Source: Streptomyces sp. SJL17-4
GTDB taxonomy: Bacteria; Actinomycetota; Actinomycetes; Streptomycetales; Streptomycetaceae
Direction of reading: 5' to 3'
Assembly (NCBI RefSeq): GCF_036826855.1
Contig: NZ_CP104578.1
Span: 4,561,501 to 4,625,500, forward strand
Length of the DNA stretch: 64,000 bases
This document shows, in pieces, positions 4,067 through 33,571 of this stretch. Both the position numbers and the translations under genes were made by a program. The notes beneath the pieces are model-generated. The model was given only the letters and a program-made list of their open reading frames with translations, was not told the DNA's origin and did no database searches. How positions within the stretch are numbered: the first letter of the stretch is position 1; every line of letters begins with the position of its first letter.

Positions 4067-4789
4067 TCAGTGTGTTCCCAGGCCGCCGCCGGAGGGCGAC
4101 ACGACTCCCGATTCGTACGCCGCGATCACCAGCTGGGCGCGGTCGCGGGCGGACAGTTTGGACAGCAGGCGGCCGATGTGGGTCTTCACCGTGCCCATGC
4201 TCAGGTGCAGGCGCGCCGTGATCTCGTCGTTCGACAGGCCCCGTGCGATCAGTTCCAGGACCTCGCGCTCCCGTTCCGTCACCCCGGTCAGTGCTGTGGG
4301 GGCGTGGCGGGAGCCGGGGGTCGGGTCGGGACGGCGGTTGAACTCCTCGATGAGACGGCGGGTCACGGACGGGGCCAGCAGGGAGTCGCCCGTGGCGACG
4401 ACCCGGATGGCGGCCAGCACTTCCGCGGGCGGAGCGTCCTTGAGGAGGAAACCCGCCGCGCCGGCCCGCAGGGCGGCGTAGACGTACTCGTCGAGGTCGA
4501 ACGTGGTCAGGATCAGCACCCGTACGCCGGTGGTCTCGGGGGAGCCGCGGATCAGCCGGGTCGCCTCGATCCCGTCCATGACCGGCATCCGGACGTCCAT
4601 CAGGACCACGTCCGGACGGTGCAGGCGGGCGAGTTCGACAGCCTCCGCCCCGTCGCCCGCCTCTCCGACGGCGGTGAGGCCGGGTTCGTGCTCGACGAGG
4701 GTCCGGAGCGATCCGCGCAGCAGCACCTGATCGTCGACCACGAGCACCCGGGTCACGCCCGTCACACCGTCCTCCCCCGCGTCTCTCAT
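4067..4789 (-). CDS. NarL/LuxR-type response regulator
   Basis: Cytosolic DNA-binding response regulator, about 240 aa. The receiver domain shows the acidic pair and phospho-acceptor Asp (VLMDVRMP) and the conserved Lys (FLLKD). After a linker comes a LuxR-type helix-turn-helix (LTEREREVLELIARGLSNDE-like, then a GTVKTHIGRLL recognition helix). The ATG overlaps the stop of the kinase gene as ATGA, suggesting translational coupling; a GTG at 4765 with a better-placed GGGGGAGG is an alternative that would shorten the protein by 8 residues. It is the last gene of the operon with the kinase and a membrane protein. A likely target is the inverted repeat at 6804-6840 (autoregulation, inferred). Confidence 0.93.
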   Translation of the reverse strand: MRDAGEDGVTGVTRVLVVDDQVLLRGSLRTLVEHEPGLTAVGEAGDGAEAVELARLHRPDVVLMDVRMPVMDGIEATRLIRGSPETTGVRVLILTTFDLDEYVYAALRAGAAGFLLKDAPPAEVLAAIRVVATGDSLLAPSVTRRLIEEFNRRPDPTPGSRHAPTALTGVTEREREVLELIARGLSNDEITARLHLSMGTVKTHIGRLLSKLSARDRAQLVIAAYESGVVSPSGGGLGTH

Positions 4790-5970
4790 ATCGTCGTTGT
4801 CGTGCCGTCCTGCGGCAGGCGGACGGAGACCGCGAACCCTCCCTCGGGGCGCGGGCCCGCGCTGAACGTCCCGCCGTGGAACATCGCCCGCTCCCGCATG
4901 CCGACCAGGCCGTGACCCGCCGCCCGGTCCTGGCCGGAACCTCGCAGGCCGTCGTCGGTGACCTCGATGCGCACCTCGCGCAGGTCGGCCTCGACCCTCA
5001 CCCGGCAGCGCGCGGGGGCCGCGTGCCTCACCGCGTTGGTGAGGGACTCCTGGACGATCCGGTGGACGGACAGGGCGAGGCCCGCGGGCAGGGCGCCGTC
5101 CGGCACCCGGACGTCCAAGTCGACCTCCATGCCTGCCTGTCGTGCCTGCTCGGCCAGCCCGCCGAGCGCGTCGATGCCGGGCGCCGGGCCCAGCGGGGCC
5201 GTTGCCGGGCCCGTGCGGAGCACACCCAGGGTGCGGCGCATCTCGGTCATGGCGGCCCGGCCGGTCTGTTCGATGACACGCAGAGCGTCCTCGGCCTCCT
5301 CCGGGCGGTGCTTGGCCACGTGCCCGGCGACCCCTGCCTTCACCACGATCAGGCCAAGGCTGTGCGACACGACGTCGTGCAACTCCCGTGCGATGCGCAA
5401 CCGTTCCTCGACGACGGCGCGTTCGGCGAGGTACGCGGCGCGATCCTCCTCCCGGGCCCGGCGGGCGCGTACGGCGAAGCCCGCCGCCCAGCCGCCGCCG
5501 AGGACCAGCCAGACCATGGCGGCGACACCGACCGCCCCGCTCCAGGTCTCGGCTGGGGTGACGACGGCCTCCCCGGTGAGGACGGCGGTCGCCGCGAGGA
5601 CGAGCGAGACGGCGAGCACCGGCACCGAGCGCCTCGGGGGCCGGGCGAGGGCGACCGCGTAGAGGACGAGGCCGGCCCCGGCCCACGGCTCGCGCGTGAT
5701 GTCCAGGAGGACGGCGGCGGAGGCTCCGGCGAGGGCTGTCGCCGCAGCCGGTACGGGCCAGAGCCGGCGGGCCGCGACCGGGAGGCCGACCGCCGCGGCC
5801 ACGAGCACGCCCGCCCACGCGGGGCCGGTGTAGGAGGGCTGCACCCCGTCGCCCGCCATCCGGGCGAAGCCGACGTACACGGCGGAGATGAGCAACGCGG
5901 TCGCCAGGTCGAGCGCGAGCAGGTCGATGCCGTGCAGCCGCCGGGGGACACGCATGGTCCGACGGTACAT
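4786..5970 (-). CDS. Sensor histidine kinase, HisKA_3 class
   Basis: Membrane-bound sensor kinase of about 394 aa, partner of the adjacent NarL-type regulator. The N-terminal ~170 residues carry several hydrophobic segments with short loops, so the signal is probably sensed in or at the membrane. A HisKA_3 dimerisation domain follows with the phospho-acceptor His in RELHDVVSH, then a compact HATPase with the N-box region (ESLTNAVRHA) and a G-box (GHGLVGMRERA). The ATG at 5970 lies 2 nt after the stop of the upstream membrane protein gene; ATG 5955 is an alternative. The signal is unknown. Confidence 0.93.
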   Translation of the reverse strand: MYRRTMRVPRRLHGIDLLALDLATALLISAVYVGFARMAGDGVQPSYTGPAWAGVLVAAAVGLPVAARRLWPVPAAATALAGASAAVLLDITREPWAGAGLVLYAVALARPPRRSVPVLAVSLVLAATAVLTGEAVVTPAETWSGAVGVAAMVWLVLGGGWAAGFAVRARRAREEDRAAYLAERAVVEERLRIARELHDVVSHSLGLIVVKAGVAGHVAKHRPEEAEDALRVIEQTGRAAMTEMRRTLGVLRTGPATAPLGPAPGIDALGGLAEQARQAGMEVDLDVRVPDGALPAGLALSVHRIVQESLTNAVRHAAPARCRVRVEADLREVRIEVTDDGLRGSGQDRAAGHGLVGMRERAMFHGGTFSAGPRPEGGFAVSVRLPQDGTTTTI

Positions 5971-31376: not shown

Positions 31377-31850
31377 CTACGGGATGAGCTCCGCCACGAT
31401 GTCGCCGAGCGTCTCCCACCAGGGCGCCGCGCCCGTGCCGAACGCGGCGGCGAGGGCGGTGCCGACGGCGTGGTCGAGCGGGGTGGGGGTGGCGGCCGGG
31501 TCCCAGTCGGCGTCGACCCTGCCGTCCCCCGCGGACTCCAGGGTGCCGAGCGCCTTCCCGTTCCGGGTGAGCCGGCTGTCCACGTGCGAGCTGGGGACGA
31601 GCCGGTAACGCACGCCGTCGACACGGGCGTCCACACGGTAGGAGCGGCGCAGCAGCCGCCCCTTGGCGGGCGTGATGACGGCGGCCTCCCCGGCCACCGT
31701 CAGGGCGAGCAGGGCGGGCTTGCGGGTCCCGATCGGGGTGTGGGTGTCGGGGCGGGCCCCGGGGGCCCGTACGAGCTCCACGGTGGGCAGCTCGTGCCCG
31801 GAGACGCGGAGGGTGCCGGCGGGTCCGTCGAGGTCGATCTGTACGTACAC
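31377..31850 (-). CDS. Conserved hypothetical protein
   Basis: 157 aa, no signal or membrane segment. Beta-rich pattern (VQIDLDGPAGTLRVSGHELP, RKPALLALTVAGEAAVITPA, RRSYRVDARVDGVRYRLVP) and a C-terminal helix (HAVGTALAAAFGTGAAPWWETLGDIV). No family recognised. GTG start with a weak GGGAC site. It follows the LuxR-type regulator gene by 28 nt on the same strand and could be co-transcribed with it. Confidence 0.75.
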   Translation of the reverse strand: MYVQIDLDGPAGTLRVSGHELPTVELVRAPGARPDTHTPIGTRKPALLALTVAGEAAVITPAKGRLLRRSYRVDARVDGVRYRLVPSSHVDSRLTRNGKALGTLESAGDGRVDADWDPAATPTPLDHAVGTALAAAFGTGAAPWWETLGDIVAELIP

Positions 31851-31878: not shown

Positions 31879-32862
31879 TCAGTTGTCCTGTTCGAGGATG
31901 CCCGACTGCGCGATCAAGTAGCCGAGCTGGGCCCGGCTGCCGCTGCCGAGGGCGGCGGCGAGTTTGGCGATGTGGGCGCGGCAGGTGCGGACGTTCATGC
32001 CGAGCCGGCGGGCGATGGCCTCGTCGACATGGCCCTCGACGAGGAGTTTGGCGATCGAGCGCTGGACGCCGCCTATGCCGTCCACGGAGGGGCTGTACGG
32101 GATCTCGTCCTCCCACGGCACGCCGTGCAGCCAGAACTGGTCGAAGACGCCGACGAGGTACTGGACGAGGCCTTCGTGGCGGAGTTCGAGGGCGACCTGG
32201 CGGTCGCTGCGCGCGGGCACGAAGGCGACCTTGCGGTCGACGATGATCAGCCGGTCGACGATCTCCTCGAGGGTGCGCAGGTCGAGCCCGTAGGGCGCGA
32301 CGCGTTCGACGTAGGCGAGGGTCGCGGGGTGGTGCCGTGCCGTGTGCTGGTAGAGCGTCCGCATCCGGACACCGCGGTCGAGCAGCGGTTCCATGCGGCG
32401 CAGGGCCGCTTCGAGGGTCTCGGGGCGGCGGCCGCTGCCGGGCTGGATGGTGAGGAGTTCCTCGGTGCACTCGTTGATGGCGCGGTCGAGGGCGGCGTTG
32501 ATGACGCTGAGGCCTTCGAGGACCGTGATCGCCTGGGCGCCGGAAGGATCCTGCGTGTGGATCGCCATGAACGGCTCGAAAACGTCCGCGAGGGCCAGTG
32601 CGTGCTGCCGCCGGACCTGTATCTCCAGCTCGATGGGGTGCACGAGCTGGTTGAGGGCGATCGACGGCGGCACGGGACGCAGGCACTGGCTGTCGTCCGG
32701 GTCCGGGTGCAGGAGGGAGAGTTCCCTCAGGCAGGGGGCTGCTTCGGCGTCCGCGCGGGCTATGCGGCCGGTGCGGAGAGCACTCGCATAGAGCTCCTTG
32801 CCCACGTCGCATAGTTCACCGTGACTGTGCTTATGACCGGACTCGTCGCATTCTCGCCTCAT
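31879..32862 (-). CDS. LuxR-type transcriptional regulator with large N-terminal domain
   Basis: 327 aa. The C-terminal ~65 residues are a helix-turn-helix of LuxR type (VDEAIARRLGMNVRTCRAHI, then LAAALGSGSRAQLGYLIAQ). The N-terminal ~250 residues are mostly helical with a Cys/His-containing start (ECDESGHKHSHGELCD) and no receiver signature, so this is not a classical response regulator; it may bind a ligand or peptide. ATG 32862 is preferred because GAGGGGGG lies just upstream; an in-frame start at 32883 lacks that. Read divergently from the small repeat-protein gene at 32991, its obvious candidate target. Confidence 0.88.
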   Translation of the reverse strand: MRRECDESGHKHSHGELCDVGKELYASALRTGRIARADAEAAPCLRELSLLHPDPDDSQCLRPVPPSIALNQLVHPIELEIQVRRQHALALADVFEPFMAIHTQDPSGAQAITVLEGLSVINAALDRAINECTEELLTIQPGSGRRPETLEAALRRMEPLLDRGVRMRTLYQHTARHHPATLAYVERVAPYGLDLRTLEEIVDRLIIVDRKVAFVPARSDRQVALELRHEGLVQYLVGVFDQFWLHGVPWEDEIPYSPSVDGIGGVQRSIAKLLVEGHVDEAIARRLGMNVRTCRAHIAKLAAALGSGSRAQLGYLIAQSGILEQDN

Positions 32863-32990
32863 TTGCACCCCCCTCAGGGTCATGAATTACAGGAACATGA
32901 TGCCCGGGTTGGCTGGTGGAAAGGGTCGGGAGTGAGCCATCGTCTTACTCGCGGGGGGGAGGTAGTGATCAAAAGAGGTGGAGATCGGCC

Positions 32991-33254
32991 ATGACCAGGA
33001 TGGTTCGTGCACTTAGCGCCATAGCCGTTGCGGCGGCTGCTCTCGGCGCACTCGCCGTCGGCGAGCCCTCGTGGGAGAGCACCCCGGCGCATTCCGTGGC
33101 AGGGCCGGGCGAGCCCTCGTGGGAGATCGCTCCGGCGCACGACGTGGTGGCGGGACCCGACGAGCCTTCGTGGGAGAGCGCTCCCAGGGACGTCGCGCTC
33201 GCCACTCCCGGCGAGCCGTCCTGGGAGATCGCTCCCAAGGGCGCGGGCGCGTGA
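32991..33254 (+). CDS. Short exported protein with four Trp-containing repeats (candidate peptide precursor)
   Basis: 87 aa. Residues 5-23 form a hydrophobic signal-like helix. The rest is four copies of a repeat with core EPSWE: Trp28, Trp44, Trp61 and Trp78, spaced 16, 17 and 17 residues, each followed by S/I-A/T-P. Apart from the repeats almost nothing is left. No family is recognised. The pattern is that of a multi-core peptide precursor or a secreted signal, but no modifying enzyme of a known class is adjacent. GAGGTGGAG precedes the ATG. The stop overlaps the GTG of the Rieske-like gene (GTGA), so the two are translationally coupled. A LuxR-type regulator is divergent. Confidence 0.8.
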   Translation: MTRMVRALSAIAVAAAALGALAVGEPSWESTPAHSVAGPGEPSWEIAPAHDVVAGPDEPSWESAPRDVALATPGEPSWEIAPKGAGA

Positions 33255-33571
33255 CCGTGCCGCCGGACGACCCCAGGTTCCGCCGGGAGATGGCTTCGGC
33301 CTACCGGTCCGGGTGGCACTTCGTCGACCTCGCCACGGCAATCCCCCACCGTGGCGACGCGCTGAAGATCACCCTCTTCGGAGAGCCGATCGTGGTGGCA
33401 CGGGAGCAGGACGAGGACGTCCGCGCGTACCGCTGCCTCCGCCGTCCCCGCGGCGCCCCACAGCCCATCCGCTGTGCCATCCGGTACGGCATGATCTTCG
33501 TCAATCTCGACCAGCGGGACCACCAGCTGATCGAGCCCGAGACCATCACCGCCACCCCCCGCAGTGCCTGA
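33251..33571 (+). CDS. Rieske-like small protein with the cluster His replaced by Arg
   Basis: 106 aa. The order WHFVDLATAIPHRGDALKITL, FGEPIVVAREQDEDVRAYRC and CAIRYGMIF follows the N-terminal part of Rieske [2Fe-2S] oxygenase domains (W...G....l.g.p.vv.r....v.A...C). In true Rieske centres CxH and CxxH bind the cluster. Here both Cys are kept (Cys62, Cys75) but the His positions are Arg64 and Arg78, and the loop between is shortened. A normal Rieske cluster is unlikely. The GTG overlaps the stop of the repeat-peptide gene. It may act on or bind the repeat peptide; that is an inference. Confidence 0.75.
   Translation: MTVPPDDPRFRREMASAYRSGWHFVDLATAIPHRGDALKITLFGEPIVVAREQDEDVRAYRCLRRPRGAPQPIRCAIRYGMIFVNLDQRDHQLIEPETITATPRSA

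Follow-up and report, generated by a model that had tools for sequence, protein, structure and literature searches.

The locus examined here, in Streptomyces sp. SJL17-4 (RefSeq assembly GCF_036826855.1, contig NZ_CP104578.1, positions 4,561,501 to 4,625,500; this whole stretch of 64,000 nucleotides is called the window below), raises the question of what a short repeat peptide does between a LuxR-type regulator and a Rieske-like protein. An earlier note on this DNA had described an 87-aa signal-like peptide with four EPSWE repeats (Trp 28, 44, 61 and 78), a peptide stop overlapping the start of the Rieske-like gene and a divergent regulator, and all were present as described. Comparison of the locus with its relatives indicates that it is probably a ligand-receptor signalling cassette, in which the repeat peptide would be the signal and the regulator, a TrmB/PLD-LuxR protein, the receptor.

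Conservation of the peptide was followed through the Rieske-like gene. A signal-like open reading frame (ORF) with at least one [DEN]xxW motif preceded this gene in 116/116 loci (80 from named records plus further genomes, a few genomes represented twice), a signal-like N-terminus being required for extraction; the loci held 111 distinct peptides. Loss of the peptide where the Rieske-like gene is kept, which the earlier note had regarded as counting against it, was looked for, and the peptide was kept at all 116. The peptide stop overlapped the Rieske-like start in 91 loci (in the window, the TGA overlaps a GTG start as GTGA) and lay 1-5 bases before it in the other 25. None of the 20 Rieske-less genomes examined (of 48) had a LuxR relative or a peptide within 1.5 kb of clpB, and the regulator, peptide and Rieske-like genes appear from these comparisons to be gained and lost as a set. 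With a narrower motif expression, 37 of the 80 peptides were missed; they were recovered by eye and by script. Several such short peptides are named 5'-nucleotidase in UniRef (P0010, P0139, P0161, P0173, P0175), an evident misannotation. One record labelled Microtetraspora glauca (L087) carries a Streptomyces-type locus with a Rieske-like protein 87% identical, falls with Streptomyces on the clpB tree and is probably mislabelled.

Motif copies ([DEN]-x-x-W) numbered 393 in total, with 1-10 per peptide, and 393 of the 402 Trp residues beyond residue 15 were inside a motif. Position one was D in 231 copies, E in 159 and N in 3. Tetramers varied by species (EPSW, DPGW, EPTW, DSGW, DISW, DSTW and more), and one tetramer was used throughout in 92 of 105 multi-copy genes. 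Motif identity over the three non-Trp positions was 0.96 within genes (mean of 105 gene means) versus 0.39 between genes, with 0/1000 shuffles as high, and linkers between copies were 40% identical. Because codons for the same motif residue differed in 607 of 1879 within-gene comparisons, it is selection on the protein, and not fresh duplication alone, that keeps the copies alike. Nineteen of the 116 peptides ended at the motif or one residue past it, including 3 of the 6 single-copy ones (e.g., LDSTWD, NDSKWD).

Association of such peptides with LuxR genes was compared with a random control of 20 stretches of 20 kb from the same genus (400 kb), in which 145 signal-like small ORFs were found, 12 with a [DEN]xxW tail and 0 passing a strict filter. 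A strict-filter peptide was present in 34 of 73 LuxR-neighbourhood loci (427 kb; 24 with the Rieske-like gene; 13 loci belong to the own genome, and the other 60 were picked among the strongest LuxR matches), which places the association above chance. Plain searches for peptide relatives in the own genome returned chance-level matches, and such relatives were found instead via LuxR neighbourhoods.

Distances between motifs were compared with distances between neighbouring proteins in 80 loci (L024-L103), the 80 top-ranking ones among at least 560 confirmed matches, so that close relatives are over-represented. Motif distance followed regulator protein distance most closely in the PLD-like part (r 0.77 for residues 119-190 and 0.71 for residues 191-262) and less closely in residues 1-60 (0.53), residues 61-118 (0.43) and the C-terminal helix-turn-helix (HTH; 0.30). 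Values for the other genes were 0.22 (PPOX), 0.15 (Rieske-like) and 0.14 (ClpB). With synonymous distances, r was 0.16-0.32 (0.20-0.31 within residues 119-262; 0.42 for residues 1-60). Partial r, given ClpB, HspR and PPOX distances, was 0.72 for residues 61-262 (0/500 permutations), 0.23 for the HTH (0/500) and 0.08 for the Rieske-like protein (20/500) in the 72 of 80 loci kept after incomplete genes were left out. In a column and pair comparison of 98 loci, 18 of the 20 regulator columns with the strongest link to the tetramer fell in residues 119-262, a region with 89 of the 189 variable columns. Between pairs with a ClpB synonymous difference of 0.06-0.12, residues 119-262 were 2.5% apart when the motif was the same (58 pairs) versus 30.5% when it was different (52 pairs); the HTH was 3.0% versus 10.3% apart.

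The same block showed signs of exchange between species. DNA identity of the window to eight DPGWH-type relatives was 88-96% for hspR, the Rieske-like gene, PPOX and clpB and 81-91% for the HTH, versus 74-75% for the PLD-like part, 65-69% for the regulator N-terminus and 58-63% for the peptide. In trees of 70 loci (again of the 80, with complete genes), three motif classes took 3 changes on residues 1-118 and 3 on residues 119-262, versus 14 on the HTH, 14 on the Rieske-like gene, 17 on PPOX, 14-17 on ClpB and 16 on HspR. Single tetramers took 15 and 15 changes on the two sensor parts versus 25-30 on the others. In the clpB tree of 80 loci, 12 changes of the EP class and 11 of the DP class were required by well-supported branches alone. 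The pattern is that of a predicted ligand and receptor exchanged as one cassette between close species, as pherotypes are. The earlier note had pointed to a peptide-signal or modified-peptide system; since the motif of the repeats varies in step with the sensor and moves with it between species, the signal half is strongly supported; the modified or redox half is not supported, the cluster ligands being absent as described below.

The regulator was assigned by profile and by structure model. A profile of 44 relatives matched the archaeal TrmBL2 structure over positions 14-259 (hmmsearch, E 1.5e-10) and a NarL-type HTH over 264-332 (E 7.2e-10). A model of the window protein (mean predicted local distance difference test score 82.7; predicted template modelling score only 0.51) was searched with Foldseek and matched TrmBL2 (1.8e-13), the PLD-family nuclease Nuc (8.7e-8) and the TrmB sugar domain (1.8e-6). 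On account of these matches, the regulator is a TrmB-type sensor (degenerate winged helix, coiled coil and PLD-like domain) with a C-terminal LuxR/NarL HTH. In Pfam, the window regulator itself matched GerE only, at 17.0 bits and under the cut-off of 23.5; GerE was found in 43 of the 44 family members (E up to 0.01), and PF01978 (TrmB) in 9 of 44, being absent from the window's own protein, in which the winged helix is degenerate. Neither a TPR family nor an autoinducer-binding domain was among the 25 of 30 Pfam families listed for the 44 members. Two regulators matched NCBIfam AbsR2 (a LuxR family regulator) and 11 of 44 matched DUF7436.

The Rieske-like protein had been called degenerate in the earlier note, and its match to PF00355 (16.6 bits, under the curated cut-off of 20.3) bears this out. 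A profile of 39 relatives matched the Rieske domain of ring-hydroxylating oxygenases (5xbp, E 2.7e-5), and the structure model gave a weak match (best E 5.7e-3). In the profile alignment, C-R-H-R-G of the oxygenase is R-R-P-R-G, and the first ligand pair C-x-H becomes R64-x-P66, where the alignment ends. No C-x2-H was found in the window protein, the sole candidate being C75-x2-R78. We take the C-x-H ... C-x2-H positions to be the [2Fe-2S] cluster ligands of Rieske proteins, and the protein, as read from its residues, should not hold such a cluster. A redox or peptide-modifying role was rejected on this ground, as the ligand pattern is absent; without cluster ligands, a modifying enzyme is unlikely. 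R64, P66, R67, G68 and R78 were invariant in 25 aligned members, Cys62 and Cys75 were replaced in some, and a C-terminal PRSA, preceded by a linker that varies in length, was the same in all 39 relatives aligned (TPRSA in 25). Because the protein is conserved and hardly co-varies with the motif, it would not be the reader of the variable motif residues. Speculatively, binding of the motif's conserved acidic residue could fall to the invariant arginines of this protein, in which case the protein need not co-vary. The protein was found in 248 of 296 own-genus genomes (E up to 1e-10), three of them weakly (1e-14 to 1e-15). In a class-wide sample of 148 genomes, strong matches were obtained in 13 of 14 own-genus genomes, and elsewhere only weak ones (best E 1.6e-9 to 1.5e-7), in long frames from six genomes of one family (f15). 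No Rieske-like paralogue above chance was found in the own genome, and the gene did not turn up at paralogous LuxR-peptide loci.

Divergent regions were aligned from 32 hand-picked loci. The block CAGGAACATGATGC (32890-32903) was exact in 30 of 32 regions, and TCCTG-N5/6-CAGGA was present in 23 of 32; the window itself has TCATG-N5-CAGGA. Autoregulation through this conserved block would be the natural reading.

From the anatomy of the parts and their co-variation we infer the following route. The propeptide would leave by the Sec route (it has a basic N-terminus, a hydrophobic helix and an Ala-x-Ala-like end), and proteases would release short D/E-x-x-W peptides from one or several sites. The released peptides may re-enter by a general oligopeptide permease and bind the PLD-like domain, altering the action of the regulator at the divergent operator, with specificity given by the variable x residues of the motif. 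The Rieske-like protein may be co-produced with the peptide and act without metal as a binding or effector protein, and in S. coelicolor the orthologue (SCO3664 by synteny) would hold back actinorhodin production. Recognition of the motif by the sensor is the strongest step of this proposal; the weakest are the stage outside the cell and what the Rieske-like protein does.

The S. coelicolor lead was obtained through a relative (L265) in which the order is hspR, a 372-aa periplasmic-binding protein, LuxR relatives of 394, 327 and 345 aa, a peptide ending SDTIWS, the Rieske-like gene and clpB; no PPOX match was found at this locus. In the parts of the literature consulted, S. coelicolor hspR is SCO3668 and clpB is SCO3661 (PMC2631018), and the LuxR proteins SCO3666 and SCO3665 have 394 and 327 aa (PMC3282765). 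On gene order and these exact neighbour lengths, and thus by synteny and not by sequence, SCO3664 is the peptide-adjacent regulator. SCO3664 is listed, in the portion of the study consulted, among the insertion targets of mutants with >50-fold actinorhodin (PMC6585502).

Related loci were then considered as a group. Regulator-family members numbered 1-17 in each of 26 genus genomes (E up to 1e-20), and the own genome held 14 further places, three with a nearby motif peptide (one ending NDLSWG, one with two DFVWD and one with four DSGWQ). Of the regulators outside Rieske loci, 15 of 48 had a strict peptide, on both deep branches of a tree from which frames <260 or >460 aa were left out; Rieske-adjacent regulators formed one group in it (97/91). 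There is about an even chance that Streptomyces, and perhaps other Actinobacteria, hold a large, undescribed class of linear-peptide pheromone systems. Each genome would then have several paralogous TrmB/PLD-LuxR receptors, many of them paired with a [DEN]xxW propeptide of their own, and the hspR-clpB system would act as exchangeable pherotypes and gate antibiotic production. In the own genome, the NDLSWG peptide gene is followed by a same-strand 103-aa ORF with no Pfam match (L007:609-1091, minus strand), perhaps a different small partner. Two similar NDSGW peptides, both failing the strict filter, flank one LuxR gene in one genome (G017; L173:1240-1398 and 4682-4840, minus strand).

Several observations weigh against a pheromone cassette or its wider extension. 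No dedicated protease or importer was found at the window locus. Residues 61-118, in the ClpB bin given above, were 6.2% versus 35.8% apart, like residues 119-262; being equally diverged, as in a swapped block, they mean that the position of the binding site cannot be read from the block by itself. Evolution of the PLD-like part is quicker than that of the control genes, although residues 1-60 change even more quickly and track the motif less closely. The tree results come from parsimony counting on quickly built trees of short regions, and species pairs in the distance comparisons are not independent, a point that the tree counts answer in part. Strict-filter peptides were missing from 33 of the 48 relatives outside the locus. 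In the class sample, searched with a looser filter at 28 LuxR loci (12 own genus, 16 others), a likely peptide was seen at 1 of the 16 others (L232, family f14); pairing outside the own genus is thus barely seen, on a thin sample, and the claim for wider Actinobacteria is weak. A regulon read from operator copies was rejected: the exact 14-mer occurs in the own genome only at this locus, and one-mismatch sites numbered 5 versus 3 for a reversed control. In the actinorhodin study, 12 of the 16 complemented regulator mutants were restored, and SCO3664 may or may not be one of these mutants (PMC6585502).

Of the other explanations, an internal sensor comes closest: the regulator would bind un-exported precursor in the cytoplasm and report export or envelope capacity, and the peptide would not be a pheromone. 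All parts needed for this are cytoplasmic before export, the locus lies among the heat-shock genes hspR and clpB, and co-variation of motif and sensor would be expected here too. Repeated cassette exchange and species-specific repeats, however, fit a cell-cell signal and have no evident internal use, and paralogous pairs sit elsewhere on the chromosome; we regard internal sensing as unlikely. The same co-variation could arise if the peptide were a structural or surface repeat protein under control of the regulator, with motif and regulator linked as neighbours through recombination. Cassette exchange is indicated, and linkage alone would give a shared history. Under that explanation the weak synonymous signal over residues 119-262 (0.20-0.31, versus 0.71-0.77 for protein) is not expected, the Rieske-like gene, though it directly abuts the peptide gene, barely tracks the motif, and 3 of 6 single-copy peptides end in the motif, as do several paralogous ones (which the strict filter favours), an odd feature in a structural repeat. 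A structural role is held to be improbable.

Least probable, and hardly to be credited, is a system for a ribosomally synthesized and post-translationally modified peptide (RiPP), in which a multi-core precursor would be served by the Rieske-like protein, acting as an enzyme or a carrier. Repeated cores that each keep a Trp, peptide and Rieske-like genes that overlap or nearly touch, and a Rieske-type fold by profile and weakly by model would suit it. Against it, the cluster-ligand pattern is absent (R64-x-P66, C75-x2-R78, both Cys variable), paralogous LuxR-peptide loci yielded no Rieske-like gene, and no other modifying enzyme, protease or transporter was recognised between hspR and clpB in the window. 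Nor was a RiPP modifying enzyme or recognition element recognised in neighbouring ORFs (Pfam, NCBIfam), and the PPOX gene is on the other strand.

The ligand-receptor cassette was compared with known systems. The ligand of RRNPP systems (Rap, NprR, PlcR, PrgX and Rgg, of Bacillota) is short, linear and often C-terminal, and TPR is the RRNPP mark. The pair of adjacent propeptide and receptor genes is shared, and an adjacent short signal-like propeptide, an RRNPP trait, was present at 116/116 Rieske-like loci, with the signal-like N-terminus required by extraction; here, in contrast, a TrmB/PLD sensor with a LuxR HTH and no TPR would meet a repeated [DEN]xxW ligand core, in Streptomyces. In agr and comQXP, a variable cassette of signal and sensor is exchanged between relatives and the flanks are conserved. 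An exchanged variable middle cassette between conserved flanks is common to both, but the regulator here is one-component, and no sensor kinase or AgrB/ComQ-like modifier was recognised from hspR to clpB in the window. TrmB and TrmBL2 have the same winged helix-coiled coil-PLD-like order and fold, by profile and model; TrmB is sugar-binding by its structure title in the Protein Data Bank, whereas the regulator has an added C-terminal LuxR HTH and its likely ligand is a peptide. Rieske oxygenase alpha subunits share the profile match, but the protein here has 106 aa, no ligand pattern and no catalytic domain. With LuxR/LuxI acyl-homoserine-lactone sensing, only the LuxR-type HTH is shared, and no LuxI was recognised among the neighbouring ORFs scanned (Pfam, NCBIfam). 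Although it would work as an RRNPP pair does, and its pattern among species resembles that of agr and comQXP, the locus is not a member of any of these; it belongs to the TrmB fold family and the LuxR-HTH proteins. That it matches no named system, as claimed earlier, holds for Pfam and NCBIfam, in which only partial HTH, Rieske and TrmB matches were obtained. The literature searched, of which coverage was partial and is not proof of absence, gave no description of the locus or the peptide class. The general kind, a peptide pheromone with a one-component receptor, is known; the types of receptor and ligand, and the host group, had no precedent in that literature. In RRNPP systems the gene for the communication propeptide adjoins that of the intracellular receptor, as the part of the source consulted has it (PMC10075063).

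A 2024 study, in the part consulted, describes Streptomyces quorum sensing as predominantly based on butyrolactones or butanolides and reports no strong candidates for signalling-peptide genes in its own strain (PMC11019849). A receptor-ligand class that can be read from sequence, and that brings predicted cores and naturally occurring variants of specificity, would make peptide communication in Streptomyces directly testable. It would also offer a concrete route to asking why SCO3664 insertions raise actinorhodin so strongly (PMC6585502), and a possible handle for activating silent antibiotic clusters.

Coordinates of the features are collected below.

Features of the hspR-clpB locus in the window (positions are those of the whole stretch; aa, amino acids)
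Feature	Coordinates	Strand	Remarks
Regulator gene	31879-32883	-	Longest frame 334 aa; divergent from peptide gene
Regulator sensor, PLD-like part (residues 119-262 of 334-aa frame)	32098..32529	-	Strongest protein-level co-variation with peptide motif
Regulator LuxR-type HTH (residues 265-334)	31882..32091	-	Weak tracking of peptide motif
Putative operator, conserved block between divergent genes	32874..32903	.	Alignment of 32 regions
Repeat peptide gene, 87 aa	32991-33254	+	Signal-like N-terminal helix (~residues 1-22) and four EPSWE repeats
EPSWE repeat 1	33063..33077	+	Trp 28
EPSWE repeat 2	33111..33125	+	Trp 44
EPSWE repeat 3	33162..33176	+	Trp 61
EPSWE repeat 4	33213..33227	+	Trp 78
Rieske-like gene, 106 aa, Rieske fold without Fe-S ligand pattern	33251-33571	+	Start overlaps peptide stop
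157-aa ORF adjoining regulator	31377-31850	-	No Pfam or NCBIfam match

The likely start of the regulator, judged from sequence, is the ATG at 32862, which has the better ribosome-binding site (GAGGGGGG upstream) and gives 327 aa, the commonest length returned by the start script among relatives (47 of 225 regulators; 40 of the 114 closest). The locus lies between dnaK-grpE-dnaJ-hspR and clpB (heat-shock gene names were assigned by eye, hspR also by a MerR match), in the order hspR, 157-aa ORF (-), regulator (-), peptide (+), Rieske-like gene (+), PPOX-class F420 oxidoreductase (-) and clpB. No modifying enzyme, protease or transporter was recognised in this interval of the window. The window belongs to a Streptomyces near S. 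venezuelae, its Rieske-like protein being 98% identical to SVEN_3427. The 157-aa ORF was variable or missing in relatives, even between strains with the same motif (largely missing, e.g., in L035, L039 and L053). In L265, the 372-aa periplasmic-binding protein next to hspR (L265:3081-4199, plus strand; PF13407, 223.7 bits) replaces it. One or two extra LuxR paralogues were present at the same locus in many genus genomes and grouped apart from the peptide-adjacent one (L153, L157-L159, L162-L170, L172, L254, L265).

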